The position numbers were made by a program, and so were the translations under genes. Under the pieces are notes generated by a model that ran no database searches, was not told where the DNA came from, and saw only the letters and a program-made list of their open reading frames with translations. From an uncultured Opitutaceae bacterium (GTDB lineage: Bacteria; Verrucomicrobiota; Verrucomicrobiia; Opitutales; Opitutaceae), in assembly GCA_903929355.1 (NCBI GenBank), contig CAIYUN010000081.1, positions 62,001 to 126,000 on the forward strand: a stretch of DNA of 64,000 nucleotides, in the 5' to 3' direction. Positions 628 through 47,200 of this stretch are shown here, in pieces (the first letter of the stretch is position 1; each line of letters begins with the position of its first letter).

Positions 628-659
628 CCGTGCTTGGTTCGTGGTGCTTGGTTCGTGGG
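628..659 (-). repeat. Heptamer array, GAACCAA/GCACCAC type
   Basis: About four 7-nt units read, on the minus (sense) strand, as alternating GAACCAA and GCACCAC variants. The array fills the gap between the stop of the 665-1012 gene and the start at 612. It belongs to the same family as the arrays at 1013, 11270, 19288 and 21393. Confidence 0.7.
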
Positions 660-9544: not shown

Positions 9545-9562
9545 GTCCGGTCGGAAAGAGTG

Positions 9563-9594: not shown

Positions 9595-9662
9595 ACTGAT
9601 GACCCCAAGCTCCGCACGGCCGCCCGGCCGCGCGGAAAGTGTGTTGCATGGTCCGTGCATGA

Positions 9663-16364: not shown

Positions 16365-17060
16365 ATGTCCAAAACCACTCACGCCCTCACCGTCCTCGCC
16401 GCACCCGAACTGGCCGTCGAGAAACCCAACCTCAAAAAACTCCAGGCCGCCGCCGTCGAGCAGTGCGCCGCCGTCGGCCAGATGGAGAGCAAGGCCGCGA
16501 TGGGCGCGGTCCTCGCCGGCATCACCCTTCACCGGGTAAAAGCCTCCATGCCCCACGGCAAATTCGGCCCGTGGGTCGAGTCAAATTCGCACTCCGGTGC
16601 GAATTTGAAACAGCGCCAGTGCAACTACTACATGCGCCTCGCCCAGGTTTTTCTGGAGAAGGCCCGCGTCCAGACGCCCGACCTCCTCGCGCTGCCCGGC
16701 GACCAGAATGCCCTGGCGGAGGGCGGCACCGCCGCCACCAAGCGGTTCATCGCCAAGCTCGGCACCTTTGTCGGCGACCTTTCCCTCACCGAGCTGCTCA
16801 TCAAGCACGGCATCAAAGGCGTGGGCCTCAAGACCGCGCTGGAGGCCGCCGAGGCCGATACCCCGCCCGCCGCCACGGCCGAGGACTATTTCACCGACGT
16901 CGCGGCCCGCCTCTACGGCTTCCGCGAGGTCGCCACCAACCGCGAGGCCCTCATGCGCCTCACCCCGCAGCAGCTCGACACCGTCCGCGAGGCCATCACC
17001 GACGCCCACGCCCAGTTCACCCGCTTCTACGACGAGGCACGCGGCACCAAGACCTCCTGA
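16365..17060 (+). CDS. DUF3102-like early phage protein
   Basis: The 231-residue protein has the pattern of DUF3102-type proteins: AGITLHRVKASMPHGKFGPWVES, then QRQCNYYMRLAQVF, where related proteins read F-G-x-W/F...QRxxxxYMRLA. Between these two blocks sits an extra segment (SNSHSGANLK) encoded by a perfect DNA hairpin. The second half is helical. A regulatory or ParB-like role is assumed from family context only. The stop codon lies in the first unit of a heptamer array. Confidence 0.6.
   Translation: MSKTTHALTVLAAPELAVEKPNLKKLQAAAVEQCAAVGQMESKAAMGAVLAGITLHRVKASMPHGKFGPWVESNSHSGANLKQRQCNYYMRLAQVFLEKARVQTPDLLALPGDQNALAEGGTAATKRFIAKLGTFVGDLSLTELLIKHGIKGVGLKTALEAAEADTPPAATAEDYFTDVAARLYGFREVATNREALMRLTPQQLDTVREAITDAHAQFTRFYDEARGTKTS
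16581..16608. repeat. Perfect 12-bp inverted repeat inside a coding region
   Basis: TCAAATTCGCAC and GTGCGAATTTGA flank a TCCG loop. It is AT-richer than its surroundings and interrupts a conserved-looking block of the DUF3102-like protein, encoding the extra residues NSHSGANLK in frame. It resembles a small inserted palindromic element. Confidence 0.75.
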
Positions 17061-17086
17061 CTCCTGGCTCCTGACTCCTGACTCCT
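17054..17086 (+). repeat. Heptamer array, CTCCTGA type
   Basis: The units are CTCCTGA, CTCCTGG, CTCCTGA, CTCCTGA and CTCCTT. The first contains the TGA stop of the DUF3102-like gene, and the array ends 8 nt before the transposase ATG, so it forms nearly the whole intergenic gap. Confidence 0.8.
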
Positions 17087-19287: not shown

Positions 19288-19319
19288 GAACCAAGCACCA
19301 AGAACTAAGAACCAAGAAC
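19288..19319 (+). repeat. Heptamer array, GAACCAA type
   Basis: The units GAACCAA, GCACCAA, GAACTAA, GAACCAA and GAAC lie between the transposase stop and the MuB-like start, in sense orientation. The rest of the gap is C/A-rich. Confidence 0.8.
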
Positions 19320-30347: not shown

Positions 30348-32531
30348 ATGTTCCGAACTCCCTGGCGGCAAAGCCTGTGCTGGTGGCTGCTGGCCGCGGC
30401 CGGGCTGCTTGCGGTCTATGCGCCGGCGCTGCATGGGGGCTTCGTCTGGGACGACGACGTGCACATCTCGGACAACGAGGCGCTGCGGTCGGGCCTCGGG
30501 CTGGCGCGGATCTGGTTTGAGCCCGGGGCGGTGTGCCAGTATTATCCGCTGAGTTTTTCGGCGTTCTGGCTGGAGTATCACCTGTGGGGGCTCGACCCTC
30601 TGGGGTATCATGTCGTCAACGTGCTACTGCACGCTGCCGTGGCGGTGCTGTTGTGGCAGGTGCTGAAGCGGCTGCGGGTGCCGGGGGCGGGGCTGGCCGC
30701 GGCGATTTTCGCCCTGCACCCGGTGATGGTGATGAGCGTGGCCTGGATGACGGAGTTGAAGAACACGCTGTCGGCCTCCCTCGCGCTCGGGGCGATCTGG
30801 GCGTATCTGCGGTTTGCGCGGGTGGGGGTGTATGCGGAGGTGGAGACATCAGACGTCAGACGTCAGAGGTCAGAGGTCAGGGGTCAGAAGCCAGAGGACC
30901 GAGGGCAGAGGGTGGAGTGGGGATTCTATCTGCTGGCGCTGGGGCTGTTTCAACTGGCGATGTTCGCCAAGACGGCGGTGAGCTTTGTACCGGTCACGCT
31001 GCTGCTGATCCTGTGGTGGCGACGACCGCGGTTGCGGTGGGCCGACTTCTGGCCGCTGCTGCCCATGCTGGCGATCATCGCGGTGATGGGCCGGATCACG
31101 GCCCAGGTGGAGCGGTCGACCGGGGCGATGGGCGCGGAGTTTGCCCAGACATTTCCGGAGCGGGTGCTGATTGCCGGACGCTCGTTCTGGTTCTATCTCG
31201 GCAAGCTGGTCTGGCCGACGCACCTCACGTTCATCTATCCGCGCTGGGACGTGGACGCAGTATCGGGACGGCAGTGGCTGTTTCCGCTGGCCGCAGGGTT
31301 GCTGATGGCCGGCCTGTGGCGGGCGCGGGGCTGGCTGGGGAAGGCGCCGCTCGTCGCCGCACTGCATTTCTTTCTCTGCACGTCGGCGCTGATCCTGGGT
31401 ATGTCGCTCTACATGACCCGCTACAGCTTCGTGGCCGACCACTGGCAGTATCTTGGCGCGATGGGGGCATGCGCGCTGGTGGGGGCCGCGCTGGCGCGGG
31501 GGCTGGCCAGGTTTGGCCGTGCCGCCGACCGGACGATCGCGGGGCTCCTCTTGCTGGGATTGGCGGGGGCGAGCTGGCGGCAGAGCCAGACGTTCGCCAA
31601 CGCGGAAACGCTCTGGCGGGCCACCTTGGATGAAAATCCCAACTGCGCCATGGCGTACGACAATCTTGGGGTGCTGCTGCTGCATACCGGCCGGTTTTCC
31701 GAGGCGGCCGGGGAATTTGTGCAGGCTCTGCGCCTTGCCCCGGGTAACGCCGCCGACCTGCACGACAAACTGGGAGCCACCCGGCTCCAGTTGCGCCACC
31801 CAACCGAGGCGGTGGTGGAGTTTGAGCAGGCGGTGCTCCTGCGCCCGGATGTTGCGGATTTTCATAACAATCTTGCGGGCGCGCAGGTTGCGCTGGGAGA
31901 TTTTGAGCCGGCCATCGAACAATATAAGACCGCCCTGCGCCTGCAGCCGGGCTCTGTGGCGGCCCAGGTCAATCTGGCGGCGACCTTGCTGGAGGCTCAC
32001 CGACCGGCCGAGGCGCTGCCGCATGCCGTCAGCGCGGTGGACCTTGAACCCGACGACCCAACGGTGCGATGCAATCTTGGCAACGTGCTGCGCGGCTTGG
32101 GGCGGACGGCAGATTCGATCCCGGAGTACAAGGAGGCGCTGCGGTTGCGGCCCGACTACCCCAAGGCGCACTTAAACCTGGGCTTGTCCCTGTTGGAACT
32201 GGGCCGCGGAGCCGAGGCGATGCCCGAGTTTGAGGCCGCGTTGCGGCTGGAACCAGACAATTTCTCCGCGCACAACAATCTGGGCCTGGCGCTGGCCCAG
32301 GCTGGCCGGATGACGGCGGCGACCGTTCAATTTGAGGCCGCGCTGCGCTTGCGGCCCGGGGCGGCGGCCACGCATTGCAACCTTGCCAAGGTGTATTTGC
32401 TGACCGCGCGGCCCTCCGAGGCGATCACCCAATTGGAGGAGGCGCTCCAGCTGCAGTCGGATTATCCGGAGGCCCGGGCGCTGTTGAGCCAGGCCCGGGG
32501 TGAACTGCCGGCTGGCGGGGTGACACCCTGA
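30348..32531 (+). CDS. TMTC-like membrane protein with TPR repeats, paralogue 1
   Basis: The 727-residue protein has an N-terminal multi-pass region (about 1-420) with WDDDVHIS after the first helix, as in GT-C/TMTC O-mannosyltransferases. Other parts are YYPLSFSAFWLEYHLWG, HPVMVMSVAWMTELKNTL and RYSFVADHWQYLG. Residues from about 430 form eight or nine TPR units. A charged linker between helices (about 165-190, QRSEVRGQKPEDRGQR) is encoded by a heptamer array. It probably glycosylates exported proteins with lipid-linked sugar. The start is preceded directly by a TTCATCC array. Confidence 0.75.
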   Translation: MFRTPWRQSLCWWLLAAAGLLAVYAPALHGGFVWDDDVHISDNEALRSGLGLARIWFEPGAVCQYYPLSFSAFWLEYHLWGLDPLGYHVVNVLLHAAVAVLLWQVLKRLRVPGAGLAAAIFALHPVMVMSVAWMTELKNTLSASLALGAIWAYLRFARVGVYAEVETSDVRRQRSEVRGQKPEDRGQRVEWGFYLLALGLFQLAMFAKTAVSFVPVTLLLILWWRRPRLRWADFWPLLPMLAIIAVMGRITAQVERSTGAMGAEFAQTFPERVLIAGRSFWFYLGKLVWPTHLTFIYPRWDVDAVSGRQWLFPLAAGLLMAGLWRARGWLGKAPLVAALHFFLCTSALILGMSLYMTRYSFVADHWQYLGAMGACALVGAALARGLARFGRAADRTIAGLLLLGLAGASWRQSQTFANAETLWRATLDENPNCAMAYDNLGVLLLHTGRFSEAAGEFVQALRLAPGNAADLHDKLGATRLQLRHPTEAVVEFEQAVLLRPDVADFHNNLAGAQVALGDFEPAIEQYKTALRLQPGSVAAQVNLAATLLEAHRPAEALPHAVSAVDLEPDDPTVRCNLGNVLRGLGRTADSIPEYKEALRLRPDYPKAHLNLGLSLLELGRGAEAMPEFEAALRLEPDNFSAHNNLGLALAQAGRMTAATVQFEAALRLRPGAAATHCNLAKVYLLTARPSEAITQLEEALQLQSDYPEARALLSQARGELPAGGVTP
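30848..30914 (+). repeat. In-frame heptamer array, GTCAGAG type
   Basis: About ten units of GTCAGAC/GTCAGAG/GCCAGAG type continue the frame of TPR paralogue 1 and encode its charged linker. The same point in paralogue 2 holds a longer array and in paralogue 3 a shorter one. Confidence 0.8.
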
Positions 32532-32757
32532 TGACGGGTGAGAACAGACAGAAGGTTTGAGTCACCCCGAAAAAGGCCGAGTCACCCCGAAAAACCCCGA
32601 ATCCTCAGAGGTGAATCGCGCGGAAAGGCCGGCAGAAACCGGCGTGGAGAGGTTTGGGACTCCAGGGGCACAAGACCCCCCGGATTGACAGAGGTTTGGG
32701 ACTCGTCGGCAGACTACTTGAGGGGTGCTTAAGGACACCTCAAGGACGGCTAAGGAA
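32532..32757. other. Repeat-rich gap at the left edge of the second phage island
   Basis: No gene is seen. GAGTCACCCCGAAAAA is present twice (about 32569 and 32589), GGTTTGGGACT twice (32651 and 32692, the second inside TTGACAGAGGTTTGGGACT). There is also an imperfect 28-bp palindrome (32717-32744) centred on CTTAAG with CTTGAGG and CCTCAAG arms. Similar TTGACAGAGGTTTGGGACT and CCTTAAGG motifs recur at 35456-35533, so these are probably regulatory or end sites of the island. Confidence 0.55.
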
Positions 32758-33267
32758 TCACCCGAAAGGCAGCTCTGGAGTGGAATCATGGCGGGGGGCA
32801 GCTTTCTTCCGGGCGCGCGGCTTGGCAAGCAGGCTGTGGGCGGCCGCCAGCACGTCGATGACCGCTTCCTCGGCCCGCACGGAGCTACCCTGCGCGGCGG
32901 TCGCGGCCGTGATCTTGCCCAGGGCGAGGCCAAAGGCGTTGCGGGCGGCCTTTCCTTCCTCACAGATCGCGTCGGAATTGTGGGCGAAGTGGTCCTGTAG
33001 GACCTTGAGGAGATAGCCGGGGAAATAGGCCGTGGCGGCCTGCGTGCCGTGCTTCTGGATGGCGTCCAACTTGCCCGAGATGGTGGCGAAGTAGCGGTTG
33101 GCGCTCCAAGTCACACCACGGCCGCGCAACCATGCGGCGGGCCAGGTGATGGCGTATTCCAACATCGCCCGGTCCTGAAAGAAGCGTTTCTCGGGAAGCC
33201 GGCCATAGAATCGGCGGCGGATGTCGGCCAGGATCGGGCCGAGGTCGATCTGGGTGGCCTCAGTCAT
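32758..33267 (-). CDS. Conserved phage protein, second gene of two-gene module
   Basis: The 169-residue protein has WPAAWLRGRGVTWSANRYF and AYFPGYLLKVLQDHFAHNSDAI, spaced like the corresponding parts of the 25940-26530 protein. The C-terminus is basic and ends ELPFG. It overlaps the upstream gene by 4 nt. It occupies the same module position as in the Mu-like prophage, which implies a common phage ancestry. Confidence 0.55.
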   Translation of the reverse strand: MTEATQIDLGPILADIRRRFYGRLPEKRFFQDRAMLEYAITWPAAWLRGRGVTWSANRYFATISGKLDAIQKHGTQAATAYFPGYLLKVLQDHFAHNSDAICEEGKAARNAFGLALGKITAATAAQGSSVRAEEAVIDVLAAAHSLLAKPRARKKAAPRHDSTPELPFG

Positions 33268-33689
33268 AGCAGAGCGGCCGGAAGTGGCGCAGCCGGGGCG
33301 CAGTCGCGGAGCCAGCGGTGGTAGGCCATCCGATAAACATTGGCCCGGCGGATCATGTCCTTGCCCTGGCTCTCCAGGGCTTCGATGGCGTGCTTGATCT
33401 CGGGGACCGTGTTGGCCGTCGACAGGCGATAGCCGGGCGAGCCGGGCCAGCTCAGGACTTGGGGGACGGCGGCGCTGGCGATCCGGCGGATGCGGCGCAG
33501 GTGTTTTTCGGTCACGATATTTTGGTCTTCAATCACATCAAACACGCCGCAGGCCAGGGCGAGCTGCTCGGCGGTCAGCCACTTTTCGGGGTGTGCCTGG
33601 AGGGCGCGGATCAGCAGCGCGACGGCATCGGGTGAAACCTCGGGTGACGGCAGCTTGAGGGCCAGCTCAGCTTGCGGAGCGTCAGTCAT
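33264..33689 (-). CDS. Conserved phage protein, first gene of two-gene module
   Basis: The 141-residue protein has EKHLRRIRRIASAAVPQVLSWPG and EIKHAIEALES, matching the 25563-25940 protein. The N-terminal region (EKWLTAEQLALACG) suggests a winged-helix fold. It starts 1 nt after the stop of the upstream gene and is coupled downstream. Confidence 0.6.
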   Translation of the reverse strand: MTDAPQAELALKLPSPEVSPDAVALLIRALQAHPEKWLTAEQLALACGVFDVIEDQNIVTEKHLRRIRRIASAAVPQVLSWPGSPGYRLSTANTVPEIKHAIEALESQGKDMIRRANVYRMAYHRWLRDCAPAAPLPAALL

Positions 33690-33690
33690 T

Positions 33691-34254
33691 TTAGAACGGC
33701 TCCTCGCCAGGGGCGTAGGCTATGCTGTGTTCAACTGAACACGGGGCCGGAATTGTGGCCGGAGTTTGGCTGGCCATGTCTTGGCCTTTTTTATCGAGCC
33801 GCTGGGCTGCCTGATGGCGGGTAGCGAAGGTCAAGTGACGCTTGCGGACTTCATCCGGGTTGAGCTTATCGAGCGGGCCGGCCTTGGCGCTGGCCGCGCC
33901 GGCGAAACGGTTTTTATCCCAGCGGTTTTTCTTGTCGCCGTATAATTCGCGCTCGTGCCAGTCGGCCTGTTGGGCACGGTTGAACGCGCGGTAGTCCTCC
34001 TGGCATTGCACCCAGCGGGCGCTGGCGTTCAGGTTGCCAGGGGCGGCGAGATGGATTAGGTGGGTGAAGAGCGCCGTGGTTTCGTCGTCACCAAAAGCGG
34101 GGTCGCTGGTGCCGGTGACTTGCGGGCCGCGCACCAGCTCCATGCAGCGCCGGACGATCTCCAGGCGCTTGGCCTTGTCGCCGCTCACCCAGCCGTTCGC
34201 GCGGCAGGCGGCCGGCCAGACCTGGGATTGTTCCTGGGTTTCCATCGCGGCCAT
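33691..34254 (-). CDS. Phage-derived protein, function unknown
   Basis: The start is ATG 34254 or ATG 34245 (METQEQSQVW). The roughly 185-residue protein has an N-terminal VWPAACRANGWVSGDKAKRLEIVRRCMELV and a basic, aromatic centre (DWHERELYGDKKNRWDKNRFAG). It leads the three-gene leftward operon of the second island. No family was recognised. Confidence 0.55.
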   Translation of the reverse strand: MAAMETQEQSQVWPAACRANGWVSGDKAKRLEIVRRCMELVRGPQVTGTSDPAFGDDETTALFTHLIHLAAPGNLNASARWVQCQEDYRAFNRAQQADWHERELYGDKKNRWDKNRFAGAASAKAGPLDKLNPDEVRKRHLTFATRHQAAQRLDKKGQDMASQTPATIPAPCSVEHSIAYAPGEEPF

Positions 34255-34294
34255 CGGCGCGCAGCGCGCCGATGGGGAGACATATCAAAACTGG

Positions 34295-34552
34295 ATGCCG
34301 ATCTTTGAGGCATTCGAGGCGGGTGCCTGGCTATTCTGGGTTCTCCCGGATGAGATTGTCATCGCCGAAATCCCAGAGGCGGCGGCCGTCGATGATGAGC
34401 GCCGGCTGCATCGCGACGATGGCCCGGCGTTCGTCTGGCTGTCCGACAAGCACCTGCGCGGCAGTCTGGTCGAGGAGTGGGCGCGCACCAAGGCTCCGCT
34501 CTTTTTTTCCGGCGGTGAATACACCGTGGCCCCGCTGGGCCGCCAGACCTGA
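34295..34552 (+). CDS. Short protein with RLHRDDGPA motif
   Basis: The 85-residue protein (MPIFEAFEAGAWLFWVLP) carries ERRLHRDDGPAFVWLSDK, a motif like the RLHxxDGPAxxW repeats of DUF6745-type proteins, usually present several times in longer proteins. The frame extends upstream without a start before overlapping the opposite gene, so this may be a truncated remnant. Whether it is expressed is uncertain. Confidence 0.4.
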   Translation: MPIFEAFEAGAWLFWVLPDEIVIAEIPEAAAVDDERRLHRDDGPAFVWLSDKHLRGSLVEEWARTKAPLFFSGGEYTVAPLGRQT

Positions 34553-34581
34553 GCCCGAATTTGTCTGAAACCACAACAACC

Positions 34582-34983
34582 ATGAAAAACAAAAAGACAC
34601 CAACCGGCCAGGGCGATGAATCATCGACCCGGCCCACCACCGAAGAACTGCTCGCGCGCCACGCCAAGGCTTGCGACCTCAAGCAACCCGTCGACCGATC
34701 CGTCATTGGGTCGTGCTTCCTGCGATGGGCGGAAATCGTCCTGAAACGCCCGATGAACATCCGCTTCGTCAGCACTGCTGATGAAGCCAAAAAAGCCGCG
34801 TGGGACGCGAGGGCCGCGAGGGACGCGAGGGACGCGAGGGACGCGAGGGCCGCGTGGGACGCGTGGGCCGCGAGGGCCGCGAGGGCCGCGTGGGACGCGT
34901 GGGCCGCGAGGGCCGCGAGGGCCGCGTGGGACGCGTGGGACGCGAGGGACGCGTGGGACGCGAGGGACGCGAGCCGGGCGTGA
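34582..34983 (+). CDS. Protein with 9-nt-repeat-encoded WDARAARDA tail
   Basis: The start at ATG 34582 follows a C/A-rich leader; TTG 34561 is an alternative. Residues 1-70 form a normal polar helical domain ([35 protein letters not shown]). From about residue 72 the protein is built of Ala-Trp-Asp/Ala-Arg-Asp triplets, predicted to be a long charged helix. Similar tails occur in other phage proteins. All frames of the repeat are open, so opposite-strand ORFs here are shadows. Confidence 0.5.
34798..34977 (+). repeat. Tandem 9-nt repeat, GCGAGGGAC/GCGTGGGAC
   Basis: About twenty 9-nt units vary at two positions (GCG-A/T-GGG-A/C-C). The period keeps three-codon steps, so unit gain or loss would not shift the frame. 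Confidence 0.85.
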
Positions 34984-35005
34984 TAGTGTGAGTTGGCACC
35001 GGGTT

Positions 35006-35411
35006 TCATTTGAGCGTCTTGAACGGCCGGCGCTCCCACTGGCGGCAGGCTGGCGCGTTGGGTTTGATGTCGGTCTCCGCGCCGTGCGTCCAGGCATGAT
35101 CCATGCGGGCGCATTTGCGGGTCGTCGGGCTGCTTCTTGGACTTGCGCTTGCGCGACGGGGTGTCGGCCAGCTCCTCGGCATCGGCAGCGGTTTCGGCGC
35201 GGCGTAAATCGATCAGGAGCCGGCGCAGCGACCGATTGGCCGCGAACCGCTCAATACGGGCGTAGACCTCGACCCTTTTCTCAGTGGAAATCTCGGTCAA
35301 GGCCAATGCCTCTGTCGCGGTGACGGCCGGGCGCGAAATTATCTCGCCATCAGGCTGGAAAGTATCTTGTTCAAGGTCCGCGAGAAAGTGGCGACCGAGG
35401 AGAGAATACAC
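35006..35411 (-). pseudogene. Probable frameshifted phage gene
   Basis: From ATG 35411 the frame reads sensibly ([54 protein letters not shown]). Near 35115 the protein-like signal passes to another frame ([28 protein letters not shown]) that stops at 35006, while the first frame runs on into the tandem repeat. A single frameshift would join both into about 134 residues. Two overlapping small genes are an alternative reading. Confidence 0.4.
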
Positions 35412-35541
35412 CCTGGCCGCGCCAACTCATGCCGGCGGACCTCATGTCAGTCTTTTTGACAGAGGTTTGGGACTTCTGGGGTGTCACCGGGGGTGATTTG
35501 ATGGCGGCTCAAGGTGGCCTTAAGGAGGGCTAAAGCGGCCG
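35412..35541. promoter_or_regulatory. Regulatory-looking gap of the second island
   Basis: TTGACAGAGGTTTGGGACT (about 35456) repeats the motif at 32685. GCTCAAGGTGGCCTTAAGG, centred on CCTTAAGG (35518), resembles the palindrome at 32717. No terminator T-tract was seen. Shared motifs 2.8 kb apart suggest a common regulator. Confidence 0.45.
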
Positions 35542-36588
35542 TCAGGGGAAGCTAAATGTCGGGGTGAGGGTGATCGGGACAAAGATGGTGTAGTTCAGGA
35601 ACATAGTGTCCTGCTGGCCGTCTGTGGCCACTTGATAGGCGTCTAGGGCGGCCGATCCGGCTGTGCCGGTGTCATAGGCCACCGGCCTGATCTCCAGTGG
35701 CACGGCAGGTCCCACGGCCGTCGCGCCTGGCACCGTGATCGCGTTGGCACCCCCTGCCGGCGTCACGGTGGCCGTTGCCATGCCCGCGCCAGTCCCGACG
35801 TTGAAATTGACGGGCGTGAGGGTCAGGGTTGGCCCTCCGGTGCCGTTGGTGGCGTCCACCGAGAAGCCCACCGCATAGCCGGCGGTGAAACAAGGGAGGT
35901 TTGGCACCGTCAACGGGTTGACCAGGCGCACCATGAAGCCGTCCCAGCCTTCGTTGCCGGTCAGCGGCTCGACCGAGCTGCGGCCGATGAGGATGCCGGC
36001 GTAGGTGTTGCTCGCGATGCCTTCACTGTCCGAGCCCGGCACCACCTCAGCCGCGCCTTGGATGGTGGTCTTGAAGGCAGCCCAAGTGCCGTTGGGCGGC
36101 GTATCGCCCTCGCCGTCGCGCTGGTAGTTGACCAGAGGCCCGCTGGTGGCGACGATGGTCGTCAGGAGTTGGAGGGCGTGGCGGCAGACATTGAAATAGT
36201 CCGCGTTGAGGAGGCCGGCTTGCATGAGGCTCTGTGCGGTGGTCCAGGTCACTCCGAGGTCGCTGGCGGCCTGCGTCAGCACACTGCCGCCCGTCCAGCC
36301 TGCGCCCGGCGCGACATATAAGCTGGCGATGGCGGTGATGGCGGCGTCGAGCATCTGCGCGGCAGATGCGCCTGCGCTGGCCGTGCCGGTCCAGAACACG
36401 CAGGCACCCTCCAGATTCGTCGCGGCGAGCGCCGCCTGGGCGGCCGTCACACCCCACGCGCCAGCGCCGTTGGCGTTGACGAGCCCGCACTGCGCGCGCT
36501 CGTGGTAGGCCGCCATCAGCTCCGCGAGCTGTGGCGCTGTCGGCCTCGTGCCGGCAGCCAGCGGGGCGGTGTATTTCACCCAGGCCAT
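35542..36588 (-). CDS. Phage structural-like protein, possibly tail
   Basis: The start at ATG 36588 (MAWVKYTAPLAAGTRP) gives 348 residues. The N-terminal half is helical and Ala-rich. The C-terminal half is beta-rich and Gly/Thr-rich (GGPTLTLTPVNFNVGTGAG; FLNYTIFVPITLTP), which suits a tail or fibre component. It starts 1 nt after the stop of the upstream gene. No family was recognised. Confidence 0.45.
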   Translation of the reverse strand: MAWVKYTAPLAAGTRPTAPQLAELMAAYHERAQCGLVNANGAGAWGVTAAQAALAATNLEGACVFWTGTASAGASAAQMLDAAITAIASLYVAPGAGWTGGSVLTQAASDLGVTWTTAQSLMQAGLLNADYFNVCRHALQLLTTIVATSGPLVNYQRDGEGDTPPNGTWAAFKTTIQGAAEVVPGSDSEGIASNTYAGILIGRSSVEPLTGNEGWDGFMVRLVNPLTVPNLPCFTAGYAVGFSVDATNGTGGPTLTLTPVNFNVGTGAGMATATVTPAGGANAITVPGATAVGPAVPLEIRPVAYDTGTAGSAALDAYQVATDGQQDTMFLNYTIFVPITLTPTFSFP

Positions 36589-36589
36589 G

Positions 36590-37090
36590 TCAGGGCGTGT
36601 AGGCTCCGACCTGCACGGCGTGGAGGAACCAGGTGCCGATGACCGAATTGGCCGTGAAGGCAAAATCAAACAGCGTGTTCGTCCCGGATGGTCCGCGCGG
36701 GTCCTGGCAGGTGACTTCCCCGATCATGCAGGGTGACTGGCCACTCTTGTAGAACAGGATTTTGTCGCCGCTCTTGGGGAAGCGCGAGGACGCGAGCGCG
36801 GCCGTGAGCGGGTAGATCGTGTTGACGGCCGCCTGCATGTCGCTGACGACCGGCACCGCGCCAGCCGGACTGAGCAACGCGGTGAACGTGCTGGGCGGGA
36901 TGTGGCCGCCCGCGCCTGCGGCCGGTGCCTTGTGGACCTTGCCCAGCGCCTGCTGGGTATCGCCCGTGCCGTTGCCGCTCAGTCCAGTGTTGCGCGCTCC
37001 GGCGTCGTCCACCGGCTTGCGCGTGCGGTTGGAACGCCAGTCCCAAAGGTCGAGTCGGCTTACACGGGCCACGCCGATCTGCCTCCGCAT
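36590..37090 (-). CDS. Phage-derived protein, 5' end replaced by repeat
   Basis: About 160 residues are visible (FPKSGDKILFYKSGQSPCMIGEV; FDFAFTANSVIGTWFLHAVQVG). The 5' end runs into the composite repeat that begins near 37087, and the only start there lies in repeat sequence (MRRQIGVARVSRLD). The original N-terminus may be lost. The body looks like a small virion or tail-associated domain. Confidence 0.4.
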   Translation of the reverse strand: MRRQIGVARVSRLDLWDWRSNRTRKPVDDAGARNTGLSGNGTGDTQQALGKVHKAPAAGAGGHIPPSTFTALLSPAGAVPVVSDMQAAVNTIYPLTAALASSRFPKSGDKILFYKSGQSPCMIGEVTCQDPRGPSGTNTLFDFAFTANSVIGTWFLHAVQVGAYTP

Positions 37091-37420
37091 CCGTGTTGAT
37101 TCGTGTCCATCCGTGGTTAAAAACTCCGCCTTCAGTTCCTGATTTCCTGATTTCCAAATTAAATTTGAATCTGGAACTCAGGAACTCAGGCCGGACCAAC
37201 CTCTCTGTCTTGGTCCTCCGTCCGTCCCCCGCCCCCTCTGTGTCCTCGGATTGTTCCCTCCGTGCGCTCCGTGTTCTCCGTGTTAAAACTCCGATTCATG
37301 GCTTGTGAACGTATCGGTGACCATCCGTGGTTAAAAACTCCGCCTTCCGTTCCTGATTTCCTGATTTCCAAATTAAATTTGAATCTGGAACTCAAGAACT
37401 CAGGTCGGACTCATTTCACT
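37087..37420. repeat. Composite intergenic repeat, copy B
   Basis: Two tandem half-copies hold ATCCGTGTTGATTCGTG or ACCATCCGTGG with GGTTAAAAACTCCG, CTGATTTCCTGATTTCC and GGAACTCAGGAACTCAGG. They are joined by CTCCGTGCGCTCCGTGTTCT. Order and wording match copy A at 27312. It starts where the second phage island ends. Confidence 0.75.
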
Positions 37421-37555
37421 TGGGCCCAAATTATTAGCCTGTCGCAGGTTGCTCGCAACCAACCCCTGTTGCCCACAGGGCAACGTCTGCGCACGGACGC
37501 AACCAGATGGTACTCTGGCATTGGCGACCGGGTCTGAAGGTGGTAAGAGAAGACC
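37421..37555. other. Leader region of TPR paralogue 2
   Basis: No gene is seen. Three short hairpins are present: GGTTGC-TC-GCAACC, TTGCCC-ACA-GGGCAA, and CCAGA ... TCTGG. No clear promoter was identified. Confidence 0.35.
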
Positions 37556-39769
37556 ATGTTCCGAACCCCTTGGCGGCAAAGTCTGTGCTGGTGGCTGGTG
37601 GCCGCCAGCGGGCTGCTCGTGGTTTACGGGCCGGCGCTGCACGGGGGTTTTTTATGGGATGACGACGTGCACATCTCGGCGAACGAGGCGCTGCGGTCAG
37701 GCCTCGGGCTGGCGCGGATCTGGTTCGAGCCCGGGGCGGTGTGCCAGTATTATCCGCTGAGTTTTTCGGCCTTCTGGCTGGAATACCACCTCTGGGGGCT
37801 CGATCCCCTCGGCTACCATGTCGTCAATGTGCTGCTGCACGCGGCCGTGGCGGTGCTGCTGTGGCAGGTGCTGCGGCGGCTGCGGGTGCCGGGGGCGGGG
37901 CTGGCCGCCGCAATCTTCGCGGTGCATCCGGTGATGGTGATGAGCGTGGCGTGGATGACAGAGTTGAAGAATACGCTGGCGGCGGCGCTGGCGCTGGGGG
38001 CGATCTGGGCGTATTTGCGGTTTGCGCGGGTGGGGGTTTACGGCCAGAGGCCAGAAGCCAGAGGTCAGACGTCAGAGGACAGAGGGCAGAGGCCGGAAGT
38101 CGGAGGCCAGAGGCCAGAGGACGGAGGGCAGAGGGTGGAGTGGGGATTCTATCTGCTGGCGCTGGGGTTGTTTCAGCTGGCGATGTTCGCAAAGACGGCG
38201 GTGAGCTTTGTGCCGGCGACGCTGCTGTTGATCCTGTGGTGGCAACGGCCGAGACTGCGGTGGGCCGACGTCTGGCCGCTGGCGCCCATGCTGGCCATTG
38301 TCATCGTGATGGGCCGGATCACCGCCCAGGTCGAAGGGCGGATGGGGGCGACAGGCCCGGCCTATGACCACTCGGTGGCGGAGCGGGTGCTGATCGCCGG
38401 GCGCTCGTTCTGGTTCTATCTCGGCAAGCTGGTCTGGCCGGCGCACCTCTCATTCATCTATCCGCGTTGGGACGTGGAGCCCACGGCGTGGTGGCAGTGG
38501 TCGTTTCCGGTGGCCGCCGGGTTGCTGATGGCGGGCCTCTGGCTGGTGCGGGGGCGACTGGGGAAGGCGCCGCTCGTCGCCAGCCTCTACTTTTTCCTCT
38601 GCACCTCGGCACTGATCCTGGGCCTGACGCTGGACTTCACCCGCTACAGCTTTGTTTCAGACCACTGGCAATATTTTGGGGCGCCGGCGATCTGCGCGCT
38701 GGCGGGGGCGGGTATTCAGTTCTTGGTGCTTCGTTCTTGGTGCTTCGTTCCCAGCCCTTGGACTTTTGGGAGGGGGTGGGTGGGGGCGGTGATGGCCGGA
38801 CTGTTGCTGATGGTCCTGGCCGGGGCGAGCTGGCGGCAAAGCCACCTCTTCGCCGACGAAGAAACCCTCTGGCGCGCGACCTTGAGGCAAAATCCGGAGA
38901 GCGACATGGCCTGCGACAACCTCGGGCTGCTGCTGCTTCGCACCGGCCGGATCCCCGAGGCGGTGTTTTGGTTCAAGGAGGAGGTGAGACTCCATCCGCG
39001 GGACGAGGCGGGCCCCCACAACAATCTGGGCACCGCCCTGCTTGAACTGGGCCGGATCCCCGAGGCGGCGGCGGAGTTCGAGGAGTCCATGCGCCTGAAT
39101 CCGAACTACGATGTGACCCACAACAACCTGGGCGATGTGCTGAACCTGCAGGGCCAGCCGGAGGCGGCCCTGGCGGAGTACCAAACGGCACTGCGCCTGA
39201 AGCCGGACCATGGGACCACCCTCGCCAATCTGGCGGGAACCCTGCTGGAGCTGAACCGTGCCCGCGAGGCGCTGACCGCAGCGACGCGGGCGGTGGTGCT
39301 GGCCCCCGACGAGCCGGTGGCACGGCACACCCTGGGCAAGGTGCTGCACGCGCTGGGCCGGAATGAGGAGGCGGTGCGGGCCGAGGCGGCGGCTTTGCAG
39401 CTGCGGCCGGATTACCCGGCCGCGCAGGTGAACCTGGCGGTGGATCTCATGTTATTGGGTCGGGGGGCCGAGGCCATGCCGCAGCTGGCGGCGGTGGTGC
39501 GGTTGCATCCGGATAATTTCGATGCGCACAACGACTACGGGCTGGCGCTGGCCATGGCCGGGAGGGGGCCGGAGGCCGCCCTCCAGTTTGAGGCGGCCCT
39601 GCGCCTGCGGCCCGACCGGGCCGCCACGCACACCGACCTGGGCAAGGTCTATCTGCTGACCGGCCGGAAAGCGGAGGCGGCCGCCCAGTTCAATGCGGCA
39701 CTACAGCTGCAGCCGGACAACGCCGAGGCGAGGGCCGGGTTGCAGCAGGCGCACGTTGGCGGAGAATGA
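37556..39769 (+). CDS. TMTC-like membrane protein with TPR repeats, paralogue 2
   Basis: The 737-residue protein is highly similar to the 30348 gene from the first residues (MFRTPWRQSLCWWL) through LWDDDVHIS, HPVMVMSVAWMTELKNTL and about nine C-terminal TPRs. The charged linker has four repeats of a 7-residue unit (GQRPEAR, GQTSEDR, GQRPEVG, GQRPEDG), encoded by a heptamer array. A second insertion (FLVLRSWCFVPS) in a later loop is also array-encoded. Near-identity of the N-terminal DNA with paralogue 1 indicates recent duplication, with the phage island now between them. Confidence 0.75.
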   Translation: MFRTPWRQSLCWWLVAASGLLVVYGPALHGGFLWDDDVHISANEALRSGLGLARIWFEPGAVCQYYPLSFSAFWLEYHLWGLDPLGYHVVNVLLHAAVAVLLWQVLRRLRVPGAGLAAAIFAVHPVMVMSVAWMTELKNTLAAALALGAIWAYLRFARVGVYGQRPEARGQTSEDRGQRPEVGGQRPEDGGQRVEWGFYLLALGLFQLAMFAKTAVSFVPATLLLILWWQRPRLRWADVWPLAPMLAIVIVMGRITAQVEGRMGATGPAYDHSVAERVLIAGRSFWFYLGKLVWPAHLSFIYPRWDVEPTAWWQWSFPVAAGLLMAGLWLVRGRLGKAPLVASLYFFLCTSALILGLTLDFTRYSFVSDHWQYFGAPAICALAGAGIQFLVLRSWCFVPSPWTFGRGWVGAVMAGLLLMVLAGASWRQSHLFADEETLWRATLRQNPESDMACDNLGLLLLRTGRIPEAVFWFKEEVRLHPRDEAGPHNNLGTALLELGRIPEAAAEFEESMRLNPNYDVTHNNLGDVLNLQGQPEAALAEYQTALRLKPDHGTTLANLAGTLLELNRAREALTAATRAVVLAPDEPVARHTLGKVLHALGRNEEAVRAEAAALQLRPDYPAAQVNLAVDLMLLGRGAEAMPQLAAVVRLHPDNFDAHNDYGLALAMAGRGPEAALQFEAALRLRPDRAATHTDLGKVYLLTGRKAEAAAQFNAALQLQPDNAEARAGLQQAHVGGE
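38044..38136 (+). repeat. In-frame heptamer array, GTCAGAG type, long form
   Basis: About thirteen units (GCCAGAG, GTCAGAC, GACAGAG and so on) encode the linker of TPR paralogue 2. Three 7-nt units equal seven codons, so the protein shows a 7-residue period. Confidence 0.85.
38719..38753 (+). repeat. In-frame heptamer array, GTTCTTG/GTGCTTC type
   Basis: The units GTTCTTG, GTGCTTC, GTTCTTG, GTGCTTC and GTTCCCA are the reverse complement of the GAACCAA arrays of the prophage. They are inserted in frame in a membrane-loop region of paralogue 2; paralogues 1 and 3 lack it. Confidence 0.85.
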
Positions 39770-40111
39770 GGTGCAGCAGATTTTTTATGGTTTAACGCCA
39801 AGGCGCGAAGGCGCGAAGGACGAACCAGTGGAGAAGGACTGCTGATTCACGCAGGAAGGGATGGGGAGACCACAAGGACGGGGACTTCGCCCATGACCTA
39901 CCCAAACAAAAACCTGCAACCACTTATGCATACTAATTTTCACTGATCGGATCCTCAGAATCAGTGTTCATCAGTGTCAATCAGTGTTGAAATCCGATCG
40001 TTGGAAAAGGTCACATCCAAGTGTTCCAAGAGTTGTTGGGCTATTCATAATCATTGGGTTGGAGTCATCCAAGAATCGGCACTGGGGTAGAAGGGGTGCA
40101 ACTGGAAGTGG
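39770..40111. other. Convergent gap with short-period arrays
   Basis: No gene is seen between two converging TPR genes. There is an 8-nt-period array near 39793-39822 (GGCGCGAAGGCGCGAAGG) and a roughly 10-nt-period array near 39958-39993 (CAGTGTTCATCAGTG, AATCAGTGTTGAAA). No clear terminator hairpin with a T-tract was found. Confidence 0.5.
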
Positions 40112-41998
40112 TCAGCGCGGGCCGGCGTCGTGGAGCGGCGAGCCGGCCTGATATAGTTTGAGCTGGGCCTGGAGGACGGCGACCATGCCGGGCTGGTGCT
40201 GGGTGTCGGCCAGTTCCGCCCCGCGTCGGGCGGTGGCGATGGCTTCGGGAAAACGGCCGGCTTCGGCATAGGCCGCCGCCAGGGTGCCCAGCACGATCGG
40301 ATTGTCCTCACCCGTGATCTGCACCGCCTTTGTGGCCAGCTCGACCGCCTTGGGGCCGTCGCGCTGCGAAGCCTGCGGCAAGGTGGCCAGCAACAACGCC
40401 AGGTTGTTCTGCGCCTGCCAGTAGTTGGGCCAGATTTGCAGGGCCTGTTGGTAGTGGGTGATCGCGTCGGTCACCCGGCCCTTTTGGACCAAGGCGATGG
40501 CCAGGTTGTAGTGGGCGTTTGCGTAATCGGGCTCGATTTGCAGGGCCTGCTGGAACTGGGCGATGGCCTCGTCTGTGCCGCCCTTTTGGAACAGGGCGGT
40601 GCCGAGGTCATTGCGGGCATCCACATCGTCGGGACTGATTTGCAGGGACTGCTGGAATTGGGCGATCGCTTCGTCCGGGCGAACTTGGTGCAGCAGGTCA
40701 ATGCCGAGGGTGTTATGCGCCCAGCCGGGATTTTGGGCCATCGCGGCCTGACAGAGGGCTTCCTCGCTGGCGAAGTCCCGGCTATGGCGCCAGGTGGCGC
40801 CCGCCAGCGCGAGCAGCAGCAGGCTGGCGAGGGTGGCGGCGGCGGGCCGGCCGAGCCAGGCCAGGCCACGGGCCAGGCCGGCCCCCGCCAGGGCGCACAT
40901 CCCCAAGGCCCCGAAATACTGCCAGTGGTCGGTGACGAAGCTGTAGCGGGTCATGTAGAGCGACATGCCCAGGATCAGCGCCGACGTGCAGAGAAAGAAA
41001 TGCAGCAAGGCGGCCAGAGGCGCCTTGCCCAGCCGCCCCCGCACCAGCCAGAGGCCCGCCATCAGCAACCCCGTGGCCAGCGGAAACAACCACTGCCACC
41101 ACGCCGCAGGATCCACGTGCCAACGCGGATAGATGAACGACAGGTTCGCCGGCCAGACCAGCTTGCCGAGGTAGAACCAAAACGAGCGCCCGGCGATCAG
41201 CACCCGCTCCGGGAAAGTCTGGGCAAACTCGGCCCCGGTGGCCCCCGACAGCCGTTCCACGCGGCCGGTGATCCGGCCCATCACGATGACAATGGCCAGC
41301 AGCGGCAGCAGCGGCCAGAGATCGGCCCACCGCAGGCGGGGCCGCCGCCACCACAGGATCAACAGCAGCGTCGCCGGCACAAAACTCACCGCCGTCTTGG
41401 CGAACATCGCCAGTTGAAACAGCCCCAGCGCCAGCAGATAGAATCCCCACTCCACCCTCTGCCCTCTGTCCTCTGGCATCTGGCCATAAACTCCCACCCG
41501 GGCAAACCGCAGATAGGCCCAGATCGCCCCCAGCGCCAGCGCCGCCGACAGCGTGTTTTTCAACTCTGTCATCCAAGCCACACTCATCACCATCACCGGA
41601 TGCAGGGCAAAAATCGCGGCGGCCAGCAGGGCGCCCGGCGCCCGCAGTCGGGCGAGCACTCGCCACAACAGCACGGCCACCGCCGCGTGCAGCAGGACGT
41701 TCACCACATGGTAGCCCAACGGATCCAAACCCCACAGATGATACTCCAGCCAGAAGACCGAGAAGGTCAGCGGATAATACTGGCAAGTCGCCCCCGGCAC
41801 GAGCCAGATTCGCTCCAGCCCCGGGTTGGAGCGCAGCGCTTCATTGGCCGAAATATGGGTGTCGTCGTCCCAGAGGAACCCGCCATGCAGCGCCGGCCCA
41901 TAGGCCGTAAGCAACACCGCCACGAAGGCCAACGCCACAACGATCGTCAGGCGCCACGAAGGCGGCGGCGGGGTGGAAGCGATCGGCGCGGGGTTCAT
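40112..41998 (-). CDS. TMTC-like membrane protein with TPR repeats, paralogue 3
   Basis: The start at ATG 41998 (MNPAPIASTPPPPSW) gives 628 residues; ATG 42043 is a longer option. The membrane part is strongly similar to paralogues 1 and 2 (LWDDDTHIS; YYPLTFSVFWLEYHLWG; RYSFVTDHWQYFG). The TPR part is shorter (five or six units, EAIAQFQQSLQISPDD pattern) and diverged. The charged linker is only GQMPEDRGQR, the shortest array form. It is convergent with paralogue 2. Confidence 0.75.
   Translation of the reverse strand: MNPAPIASTPPPPSWRLTIVVALAFVAVLLTAYGPALHGGFLWDDDTHISANEALRSNPGLERIWLVPGATCQYYPLTFSVFWLEYHLWGLDPLGYHVVNVLLHAAVAVLLWRVLARLRAPGALLAAAIFALHPVMVMSVAWMTELKNTLSAALALGAIWAYLRFARVGVYGQMPEDRGQRVEWGFYLLALGLFQLAMFAKTAVSFVPATLLLILWWRRPRLRWADLWPLLPLLAIVIVMGRITGRVERLSGATGAEFAQTFPERVLIAGRSFWFYLGKLVWPANLSFIYPRWHVDPAAWWQWLFPLATGLLMAGLWLVRGRLGKAPLAALLHFFLCTSALILGMSLYMTRYSFVTDHWQYFGALGMCALAGAGLARGLAWLGRPAAATLASLLLLALAGATWRHSRDFASEEALCQAAMAQNPGWAHNTLGIDLLHQVRPDEAIAQFQQSLQISPDDVDARNDLGTALFQKGGTDEAIAQFQQALQIEPDYANAHYNLAIALVQKGRVTDAITHYQQALQIWPNYWQAQNNLALLLATLPQASQRDGPKAVELATKAVQITGEDNPIVLGTLAAAYAEAGRFPEAIATARRGAELADTQHQPGMVAVLQAQLKLYQAGSPLHDAGPR
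41455..41486 (-). repeat. In-frame heptamer array, short form
   Basis: About four units on the sense strand (GCCAGAT, GCCAGAG, GACAGAG, GGCAGAG) encode the linker of TPR paralogue 3, at the same site as the longer arrays in its paralogues. Confidence 0.75.
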
Positions 41999-42106
41999 GC
42001 GGAGAGACCCATCCAATCCCCTCACTGATGTCTTGCCAGCCAAATTGCCCCGGCACCGGGCGGAATCAAACCTGGATTAAATCATATTCCGGCCGGGCAA
42101 TCGATC

Positions 42107-42300: not shown

Positions 42301-42342
42301 TTCATCCTTCATAATTCATCATTCGTCCTTCATCCTTCACTA
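42301..42342 (+). repeat. Heptamer array, TTCATCC type, before the aminopeptidase
   Basis: The units TTCATCC, TTCATAA, TTCATCA, TTCGTCC, TTCATCC and TTCACTA are followed by six bases and the ATG at 42349. It is the same unit type and placement as the array at 30313. Confidence 0.8.
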
Positions 42343-43514: not shown

Positions 43515-43985
43515 GGAACGTGTTGATCCGTGTAATCCGTGGTTAAAACCTCCGCCCTCCGTTCCAGATTTCTTGATTTCCCCAATCAATTCCGAATCTG
43601 GAACTCAGGAACTCAGGTCGGAACAATCATTTGTATTCGGACCAACCCTCTTGGCTGATGAGCGACCAGTTGCCCGTTTTGTGGTCGATCTACTTCCGTA
43701 TCCGTGTTGATCCGTGTAATCCGTGGTTAAAACTCGGCTCTCCGTTCCTGATTTCCTGATTTCCCCATTCAATTCCGAATCTGGAACTAAGGAACTCAGG
43801 TCGGACCAATCATTTGTATTCGGACCCAACCCCCTTGGCTGATGAGCGACCAGATGCCCGTTTTGTGGTCGATCTACTTCCGTATCCGTGATGGTCCGTG
43901 GTTAAATCCGATTGCCAAATCTTGGTTCACTGGTTCGCCCTCCTGCCTTTGCGCCTTCGCGCCTTCGCGTTAAATGCATGGAGCA
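43515..43985. repeat. Composite intergenic repeat, copy C, 184-bp tandem
   Basis: GTTGATCCGTGTAATCCGTGG begins near 43521 and again near 43705, and GTGGTCGATCTACTTCCGT at 43681 and 43865, giving a 184-bp period. Modules shared with copies A and B are CTGATTTCCTGATTTCC and GGAACTCAGGAACTCAGG. An 8-nt array (CTTTGCGCCTTCGCGCC) closes the region. No gene is supported here. Confidence 0.8.
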
Positions 43986-44273: not shown

Positions 44274-47200
44274 ATGAAAACTCCCGTCGCACGCCCTCGT
44301 TTTCTGTCACTTTTTTTCCGGTCACTGGCCCCTCCTCCTGCGGGGCTCACCGCCATTGCTCTGTTCGCCGTTTTGTTCGCCGGCGCGGCGCGCGCCCAGA
44401 CCACGCTGCCCGGGTACATCGTGAAGGCCGGGACGGGCACGGACATCAGCCAGGCGGCGGCGTGGACGACGATCCCTGCGTTCGACGGCACCGATCAGGC
44501 CGCGTGGAACGGCACGGCGGGAGTGGGCGGCAGCACGGTGGACGTTGGCGGCGGCGTGTCTTTTCTGGGGTTGACCTTGTTCAGCGGCACGACCCAAAAC
44601 GTCACCATCAACGCTTTGACGGGTGGCACGCTCACGCTCGGTGGCTCCGGCATCATCATGTTGGGTGGCGCGTCGAACAATCTCACCATCAACAGCGCGG
44701 TCACCCTCGGGGCGAACCAGACTTGGTCGGTGGGCAGCGGCGATACTCTGACGGTCTCGGGCGCGTTGAGCGGTGCGTTCAACCTGAGCCAGGCGGGCGC
44801 GGGTACGCTGGTGCTGTCCGGGGCCAACAACATCGGCTATACGGGGCTCACCACGGTCACCGGTGGCACGCTGAGCATCAACTCGATCAGCAATCTCGCT
44901 GCGGCCCCCGCCTCGTTCACCGCCAATGAAATCACCCTGAACGGCGGGGCGCTCTCGACCAGCTTCTCGGCCACGAGCACGCTGGCGGCCAACACGGGCA
45001 TCACCCTGGGGGCCGGCGGCGGCACCCTCAGCATCAACACGAACCGGCTCACCATTCCCGCGGTCGATGTGATCAGCGGTACGGGCGCCCTCACCATCAC
45101 CGGCAACAGCACCCTGGATTTGCAGCAGCAGAACACCTACACCGGCGGCACGACGCTGGCGGCTGGACTGGGCATCGTGACGATTGTCGAGGCCACTTCC
45201 ACGACTGTCGCCGGCAGCCTCGTGAGCGGCGCCTTCGGCACCGGCACGGTGAACCTGGCCGGCGGCGGCCTGCGTTCCTCGACCGTCACCTCGAATTCCG
45301 TGGCCAACACGGTGGTGATCTCGGGCGACACCACCTTTGCCACGGGCGGCACCGACCAGCCCCTGACCTTCACCGGCCCTGTCACCCTGACTGGCGTCGC
45401 CGGCACCAACCGCGTGCTGACGGTCAACACCAACCCGGGCACGGTCGCCATCACCCTCACCGGGGTGATTGGCGACGGCGGGAATAACCTGGGCCTCACC
45501 AAGGCCGGCACCGGCCTGCTGGTGCTGCCGGGCCTGAACACCTATACCGGGGTGACGAGCATCAGCGGGGGCACGCTGAGCACGGGCGCGACGGGCACGT
45601 TGGCCAACGGTGGCACGGTCAGCTCCATCGGCAAATCGGCGAGCGGGGCGGGCAACCTGCAGCTCTTCGCGGGCGCGTTGCAATACCTGAGCAACGGCGC
45701 GGCCACCTCCACCGACCGTCTTTTCACGTTCGGTGCGGGTGCGGTCAGCCTTGACGCGTCGGGCACGAACGCCCTCACCTTTGCGAACACGGGCGCGCTG
45801 GCCTACACCGGCAGCGGCAACCGCACCCTCACCTTCACCGGCACGAACGCGGCGGCCAACGTTTTCACCCCGATCATCGCCAACGGGGCGGGCGGCACCA
45901 CCTCGCTGGTCAAGAACGGCGCGGGCGAGTGGGTGCTGGCGGGGTTGGACACCTATACGGGCGGCACCACCGTGACGGCGGGCACGCTCGTGCTGGGCTT
46001 GCCCAACGGGTTGGCGGCGGCGGGGCTGCTGACGGTCAACGGCGGCGCTTTTGACCTGGCGGGGAACGCGCAGACCTTCGTCGGCCTCTCCGGCACAGGC
46101 GGCACGGTGATCTCTTCGGCCGGCACACCGACCCTGACCATCAACAACCTCGCCCCGGCAATCACGACCTACAGCGGCGTGGTCGGCGGTTCGCTGGGCG
46201 TGACCATAAACGGGACGGGCACGCAGGCGCTGACCGGCGCGAACACCTACACCGGGCTGACCACAATCACCAGTGGCACGCTCACCACCGGCGCGGCCGG
46301 CACCACGGGCACGGGTGCCGTGGTGCTCAACGGCGGCGCATTGCAATTTCTCAATACCGCCGCGCGGACGACCAACGCGCAAATCACCCTGGGTACGGGC
46401 GGCATCATTGACGCCTCGGGCACCAGCCCGGTCAGCTTCACCAACACGGCGGCGCTGACGGTTCCGGGGACCAACTTGGCGGCCACGCTCACGCTCACCG
46501 GCGCGAGCGCCGGCGCGAACACCTTTGCCCCCATCATCGTGAACAACGGCACGGGCTTGGTTTCGTTGGTGAAGAACGGTGCGGGCCAGTGGGCGGTCAC
46601 GGGTTTGAACACCTATACCGGCCCGACGACCATCCTCACCGGCACCCTGAGCACCGGCGCGGCGGGCACGCTCGCCGTCGGGGGCCAGGCCAGCAGCATC
46701 GGCGCCTCCGCCAACACCGCCCCGGGGCTGGTGCTGAACGGCGGTGCGCTGCAATACGCCGGGAACGCGGCCGGGGTCACCGACCGCCTGTTCACCCTCG
46801 GTGCGGCGGGCGGCACGCTGGACGCCTCGGGCGGCGGCACGCTCACCTTTAACAATAATGCCGGGGCGGTCGCCTTTTCCTCGGCCAACTTCGCCGAAAC
46901 GCTCACGTTCAGCGGCGCAAACGCCGGCCTCAATACTTTTGCGCCGGTGCTCGGCAACAACGGCGCTGGCCTGACCGCGCTGACGAAGACCGGGGTGGGG
47001 GAGTGGGTCTTGGCGGCCGCGAACACCTACACCGGTGTGACCACGATCAGCCGCGGCACGCTGAGCACGGGTGCTAACGGCATATTTGCCAATGGCGGCA
47101 CGGCCAGCGCGATCGGTGCAGCGGGCAACGCGGCGACCAACATTGTGCTGAACGGCGGGGCCCTGCAATATGCCAACACCGGCGCGGCGGAGAGCACCGA

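Follow-up and report, generated by a model that had tools for sequence, protein, structure and literature searches.

The 64,000-nucleotide stretch of DNA analyzed here (contig CAIYUN010000081.1 of assembly GCA_903929355.1, positions 62,001 to 126,000; hereafter the window) comes from an uncultured Opitutaceae bacterium and contains three paralogous genes for TPR-containing membrane proteins, each of which carries, in frame and at the same site, an array of degenerate 7-bp units. We think it probable that these arrays descend from one that already occupied this loop in the ancestral gene, that the number of units changed later, and that they are one case of a genome-wide heptamer process whose products are mostly near-neutral when they fall within genes. 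The features are listed in Table 1. The window's own genome, a 3.8-Mb Verrucomicrobiota draft in 91 contigs, is referred to as G000 (G numbers denote genomes, L numbers loci).

An earlier note on this DNA had reported that the linker between the RVGVY and VEWGFYLL motifs is 26, 31, and 10 residues long in paralogues 1, 2, and 3, respectively, and is encoded by GTCAGAG-type heptamers. This is borne out by the DNA itself, by the lag-7 identity of the arrays (0.79, 0.78, and 0.77), and by a Markov-3 control of 2 Mb, trained on the window, in which no segment matched that identity at any of the three array widths. Read by eye in the phase CAGANGN, the arrays contain 9, 13, and 4 in-register units, preceded by GGC in arrays 2 and 3 and, in array 1, by an irregular edge of 16 nt that does not keep the register. 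On the right, all three arrays end in CAGAGGA, CNGAGGG, and CAGAGGG, and a CAGAGGA-CNGAGGG-CAGAGGS block is present twice in paralogue 2. As the note stated, arrays 2 and 3 differ by 63 nt, that is, nine heptamers. The other two pairs differ by 48 nt (1 minus 3) and 15 nt (2 minus 1); since neither is a multiple of 7, what is kept is the reading frame. The right edge and the flanks are common to the three arrays while the number of units differs, which points to one inherited array that later gained or lost units, and the expansion and contraction claimed in the note can be upheld on an evolutionary scale. With 69% and 63% protein identity between paralogue 2 and the two others, the arrays have had a long time to diverge. 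Paralogue 2 has a second array of another sequence, no counterpart of which was seen at the corresponding stretch of paralogues 1 and 3.

Table 1. Paralogues, heptamer arrays, and related repeats in the window (window coordinates)
Feature	Position	Strand	Remarks
Paralogue 1 (P0001)	30348..32531	+	Multi-helix membrane protein, TPRs C-terminal; TPR family matches
Array 1	30834..30911	+	In frame, 26 aa; nine in-register CRGANGN-type units and a 16-nt out-of-register left edge
Paralogue 2 (P0002)	37556..39769	+	AlphaFold model
Array 2	38042..38134	+	In frame, 31 aa; thirteen units
Paralogue 3 (P0003)	40112..42043	-	Alternative start ATG at 41998 possible; custom gene caller
Array 3	41456..41485	-	In frame, 10 aa; four units
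Second array in paralogue 2	38714..38755	+	Another sequence, GTTCTTGGTGCTTC repeated
CTCCTGA heptamer array	17054..17086	+	
GAACCAA heptamer array	19288..19319	+	
TTCATCC heptamer array	42301..42339	+	GGATGAA on the other strand
14-bp repeat	630..658	+	GTGCTTGGTTCGTG, possibly two heptamers

The three proteins consist of a hydrophobic multi-helix part followed by C-terminal TPRs. In the AlphaFold model of paralogue 2, the mean pLDDT is 91, but over residues 161-190, which correspond to the array, the values are 51, 50, and 47; the loop is therefore predicted to be disordered, and the order of the helices together with the charge of the loop suggests that it is cytoplasmic. As to the identity of the membrane domain, Pfam, NCBIfam, and the 50 Foldseek matches listed pointed to TPR or other helical-repeat proteins; presumably, this domain resembles GT-C/TMTC proteins. 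Among 34 homologous open reading frames (ORFs) aligned with the three paralogues, the loop is not of constant length. The relatives that carry a name are mostly metagenome-assembled genomes (MAGs), from Verrucomicrobia and from other phyla. A role in surface or antigenic variation was considered and set aside: with loops of variable length in homologues, predicted disorder, a probably cytoplasmic location, and similar arrays throughout the genome, it is unlikely.

The earlier note had held that a lack of arrays in orthologues would count against a length-variable region, and on this point the outcome is mixed. Among the 19 of the 34 homologues whose loop DNA was inspected, namely those with longer loops, only L069 (a named Verrucomicrobia MAG) has a heptamer array. 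This array is opposite in orientation, which is most simply explained if this loop was filled independently there. A lag-7 scan of 20 named loci yielded two arrays, that of L069 (695-739, in the loop) and one in L077 (11654-11683) outside the ORF, and no loop array was present in L012, a more distant homologue in G000, or in L039, a same-genus homologue in G003. To speak of a length-variable region of a membrane protein is too narrow, since similar in-frame arrays occur in unrelated housekeeping genes, as detailed below. We found nothing supporting a function of their own for the TPR arrays.

Heptamer arrays are abundant throughout G000. The sequence GTCAGAGGTCAGAG occurs at 34 genomic sites, versus none for the reversed control, and a three-unit search that tolerates up to 3 mismatches gives 534 overlapping windows, versus 33. 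In 0.80 Mb of this genome, sampled partly from contigs chosen because they contain matches, arrays with a lag of 7 reach 75.9 per Mb and those with a lag of 14 reach 60.9 per Mb, while the remaining lags from 4 to 15 give 1.2-16.2 per Mb; the Markov-3 value of 1.2 per Mb at every lag is what is expected from a single all-N locus (L143), which the real values include as well. With the threshold relaxed slightly and N excluded, the same sample contains 88 period-7 arrays, of which 60 are intergenic, 24 lie in predicted coding sequences, and 4 at their edges. The arrays are thus biased to non-coding DNA, 85% of the sample being coding according to our custom gene caller, whose 651 gene calls are approximate and in which stop-free reading through the arrays is partly built in. 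The commonest unit, CRGANGN, accounts for 51 arrays and 328 units, and there are other families with the units CGGANTG (15 arrays), CAAGNAC (6), GGATTTT-like (5), and TTGGNTA-like (6), it being possible for one array to score in two families.

The 24 coding arrays are distributed over 20 predicted genes. Besides the three paralogues, these genes encode, as judged by family or PDB matches, AlaRS, DnaE, PurL, MetH, GcvP, an RsmB/F-type methylase, QueG, threonylcarbamoyladenylate synthase, LpxK, NAD kinase, an M48 peptidase, a GT41-type protein, a tRNA U5 methyltransferase-type protein, a MuiA-family protein, a two-domain glycosyl/glycerophosphotransferase, and a WD40 protein; one gene of the 20 had no Pfam family match. 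The arrays coincide with additional residues in MetH (16 relative to PDB 9ssp) and PurL (18 relative to PDB 1t3t). As judged by the encoded peptides, at least 6 of the 24 are near a protein end rather than in an inner loop (L150, both arrays of L151 5381-6643, L157 9047, L218, and the last of L229; also L220 7624). The array in L150 (13741-13811) apparently encodes the hydrophobic part of an N-terminal signal-like segment of the MuiA-family protein. In L157 (8650-9079), two inverted array pairs are found just upstream of and extending into the WD40 gene (coding sequence 9024-9761); the DNA upstream of this gene looks WD40-like by eye, and the gene may be interrupted.

Comparison with relatives shows that the same loops can be empty or filled. 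The PurL loop was compared in G000 and 12 relatives. In five of these 13 sequences the insert exceeds the short form by at least 10 residues, in G010 the loop is longer by a few residues, and the other seven have the short form. The heptamers differ between genomes: GCAATCC units in G000, degenerate and weak AATCCAA-like units in G004, which belongs to the same genus, CTCCTGA in G006, and CTCAGCT and AGCCCAG units in G007; the fifth insert, in G009, has a repeat of period 10. In the MetH loop, compared in 13 genes (14 rows, as G007 appears twice), G000 has CTCCGCA units, G007 a longer insert of CTCAGCT units, and G002 a short extension, the other ten being empty. The presence of unrelated repeats in the same loops of relatives implies that tolerant loops have been filled more than once.

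Arrays of this type are patchily distributed, as seen in collections with one genome per species. GTCAGAGGTCAGAG was found in 8 of 57 genomes, its own included; in the five same-genus genomes, it is present in one copy in three and absent from two, with G002 also giving one control match. Three consecutive GNCAGAN units were detected in 71 of 288 genomes of the phylum (52 of 152 genera), with 193 matches in G000 versus 16 for the control, and three TGCGGAN units in 24 of 288 genomes (21 of 152 genera), with 102 matches in G000 versus 0. In some genomes, the control exceeds the real matches (G194, G331, and G277 for GNCAGAN; G205, G272, and G292 for TGCGGAN), so low counts there mean little. 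G010, from another genus of the same family and listed as 100% complete, has 105 GNCAGAN matches, versus 0 for the control, and 50.9 lag-7 arrays per Mb. Arrays of hexamers (lag 6) are no rarer in this genome, at 68.8 per Mb. In the same-genus sample, lag 7 is the highest of the lags, at 21.2 per Mb, and in 0.4 Mb from 20 genomes of the phylum, partly from contigs picked for matches, lags 7 and 14 give 17.5 and 22.5 per Mb, and other lags 0-5.

Between adjacent units of CRGANGN arrays, taken unfiltered, positions 1-7 differ with frequencies of 0.02, 0.17, 0.01, 0.04, 0.56, 0.10, and 0.28 in G000 (50 arrays, 285 pairs) and 0.00, 0.37, 0.01, 0.02, 0.64, 0.04, and 0.19 in G010 (20 arrays, 166 pairs), a contrast between positions that is sharpened both by fitting the unit phase to the core and by bounding total mismatches during array detection. 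Position 2 is A or G, with frequencies of 0.84 and 0.15 in G000, and 0.49 and 0.48 in G010. Shuffling units within arrays leaves position 5 unchanged (0.561 observed versus 0.544 in G000; 0.639 versus 0.643 in G010). At positions 7 and 2, neighbors resemble each other more than in shuffles, with 0 and 0 of 1000 shuffles as low in G000, and 0 and 10 of 1000 in G010. Neighbor copying is therefore visible at some positions of the unit, but not at the fifth. Shuffling across all arrays raises the value for position 5 to 0.625 in G000 (4 of 1000 as low), which indicates that arrays in this genome differ somewhat in their base-5 make-up; no such rise is seen in G010 (323 of 1000 as low). By eye, several families appear to have a common layout x-R-G-A-N-K-x, which is not fitted by CAAGNAC, TTGGNTA, and several arrays of other genomes.

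How might such arrays have arisen? Under the reading that we prefer, a genome-wide process would generate heptamer arrays, belonging to several sequence families, at scattered sites, mostly in intergenic DNA, with some in frame in loops or at the ends of ordinary and essential proteins, selection purging those in genes that break the frame or the structure. A degenerate array would have been inserted, or have grown, in a tolerant disordered loop in the ancestor of the three paralogues, probably in a single event; its number of units would then have changed, while purifying selection acting on the remainder of the protein held the frame. Arrays within genes would most likely be near-neutral. 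As to how arrays form, we tentatively favor local generation, by slippage-like growth combined with a position-specific process varying base 5, over copy-and-paste, and rate it somewhat short of an even call. The register and the resemblance of neighboring units at positions 2 and 7 would fit local growth, as would the fact that loci hardly share flanks. A position-specific mutation or a degenerate template is possible for base 5.

Several observations weigh against this account. Plain slippage does not predict the absence of neighbor correlation at position 5, and local growth accounts neither for base 5 nor for the reappearance of a single unit type at many sites. GcvP shows no net insert relative to 4lgl, its heptamer-encoded stretches having about the length of the homologue's loops, so that they look replaced rather than added in this alignment; the DnaE array falls where neither protein is aligned and the AlaRS array outside the aligned part, with no insertion visible in either case; and in G009 the PurL loop (L276 2722-2841) contains a 10-bp rather than a 7-bp repeat. 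In addition, the longest string common to two loci is 39 bp, versus 33-35 bp in five unit-level Markov simulations, which were themselves trained on the same arrays.

This last string would be expected if the arrays were instead the arms or bodies of small non-autonomous mobile elements, similar to Rickettsia palindromic elements (RPEs) or miniature inverted-repeat transposable elements (MITEs), that are copied and pasted in frame. Such elements would also account for the extra in-frame residues in MetH and PurL and for an excess of inverted same-family neighbors within 400 bp, since G000 has 13 (+,-) pairs versus 3 (-,+), 10 (-,-), and 3 (+,+), examples of such neighbors being L151 5452-5539, L157 8650-8774, and L155 13944-14054. 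The sign of each family is arbitrary, however, and the excess was not set against gene orientation; two of the 13 pairs are TPR arrays whose partners (31041 and 38264) look like chance matches in coding sequence, and G010 gives 4 (+,-), 2 (-,+), and 4 (+,+). Flanks, compared over 60 bp starting 10 bp outside each array, share strings of at least 14 bp among the three paralogues, in one nearby pair (42 bp), and in one 15-bp match, five other strings being themselves heptamers. The nearby pair, L158 4722 and 10586, lies about 6 kb apart, and its 42-bp non-heptamer flank perhaps belongs to a small duplicated element. Flanks are otherwise unshared, and long shared strings are as frequent as simulated: 6 of 1225 between-locus array pairs share at least 28 bp, which is within the 5-16 given by the simulations, and most arrays are thus not recent copies of one another. 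We therefore regard mobile elements as unlikely. Putative protein- or RNA-binding sites, in which the constant positions of the unit would be those recognized and of which genic copies would be spill-over, would explain why positions 1, 3, 4, and 6 are nearly constant in two genera with position 5 free, and why most arrays are intergenic. This sits poorly with the existence of several unit families in one genome and with the lack of conservation at the TPR, PurL, and MetH loops, the three compared across relatives, and we consider it rather improbable.

A more radical possibility, which we regard as doubtful, is that an active process in Verrucomicrobiota does not copy existing arrays but writes degenerate heptamers de novo following a fixed grammar, here most commonly C-R-G-A-N-G-N, in which every unit receives a fresh choice of base 5, and independently fills the same tolerant loops in related lineages with their own heptamers. 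If true, this would require a templated or position-mutagenic polymerase. It is made less probable by the difference in base-5 make-up between G000 arrays and by the one locus pair that shares more than simulated, and some heptamer families are outside any one layout. Phase variation seems very improbable: a single heptamer change does shift the frame, so that gain or loss could in two of three cases switch a contingency locus on and off or vary an exposed part, and lengths do differ between paralogues. However, there is no near-perfect tract, the units being imperfect in the TPR arrays and in those of the genome at large, where base 5 differs in 56% of the 285 adjacent pairs, which should slow slippage; the loop is probably cytoplasmic; and similar arrays occur in PurL, MetH, DnaE, and AlaRS, where on/off switching would be costly. 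Finally, we give almost no credence to an assembly or binning artefact. The window does come from a draft of many contigs, but arrays are also found inside PurL and MetH of G007, which is a single contig, and in the complete-listed G010.

Other repeats occur in the window. A 9-bp unit (CGCGAGGGA) is present in about 20 copies at 34795-34973, most plausibly within an ORF (34561-34983) in which it would encode Ala/Asp/Arg/Trp repeats. A 184-bp direct repeat of 2.1 copies, with CGTGTTGATCCGTGTAATCCGTGG-like text, is found at 43519-43900, with similar text near 37085-37410. On the + strand, an open frame of about 19.6 kb (44373-63998) predicted by our custom gene caller reaches the end of the window and would encode a giant protein. 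Structured RNA was considered and set aside, no Rfam family reaching the gathering score within the window.

The arrays resemble two known systems, the GGGANTN arrays of Xanthomonas and the RPEs, but belong to neither. The available portion of the Xanthomonas report (PMC4692102) describes (GGGANTN)n arrays, and GGGGA(C/T)T arrays in Nostoc, with a period of 7, a genome-wide distribution, heterogeneous units, a non-coding bias, and an unexplained function; it cites slippage tied to polymerase contact size as a hypothesis for heptamers, as well as a 2007 study on heptamer excess, and describes heptamers as over-represented among bacterial repeats, with a role as yet unexplained. The period at many loci, the heterogeneity, and the non-coding bias are common to both. 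Positions 1-4 and 6 are reported to be conserved there, with 5 and 7 variable; here, positions 1, 3, 4, and 6 are conserved, 5 and 7 variable, and position 2 is A or G. Unlike in Xanthomonas, as far as that portion goes, the CRGANGN consensus, on a reading of the consensus only, lacks the quadruplex-capable GGG tract, and there are several unit families per genome and many in-frame arrays in housekeeping genes, in another phylum. RPEs, according to the part of the source available (PMC2229807), are 105-146 bp long with terminal inverted repeats and stem-loops, occur as in-frame fusions within conserved protein genes and also in intergenic DNA, and include one tested element that is neutral or slightly detrimental. 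MetH and PurL here have comparable in-frame insertions. In contrast, the TPR arrays consist of direct heptamers and measure 30-93 nt, and the arrays of this genome are mostly without common flanks. TAACTGA direct repeats of Beggiatoaceae, Cyanobacteria, and Bacteroidetes are likewise dispersed heptamers, patchy across phyla and sometimes within ORFs. They differ, in the accessible text (PMC4679880), in being a single heptamer, with related heptamers rarely or never repeated, mostly located just upstream of start codons, and in ORFs mostly at protein ends. Borg tandem repeats lie in and between genes, the genic ones often disordered and commonly in extracellular or membrane proteins; that source, in the part available (PMC9879509), presents them as perfect at the amino-acid level and very strongly selected, whereas the units here are degenerate and of 7 bp, and the TPR arrays do not encode perfect amino-acid repeats. 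Judged by titles and abstracts among the matches listed, the open-access collection searched contained no paper on these Verrucomicrobiota arrays.

In G000, period 7 is dominant, arrays lie in frame in genes for essential enzymes, and orthologous loops can be compared where they are empty and where they are filled. Any mechanism is concretely constrained by the fifth position, which shows no neighbor memory. For annotation, our results suggest that heptamer-coded peptides such as SAIRNPQS and GQRSEVR can be insertions rather than domains.

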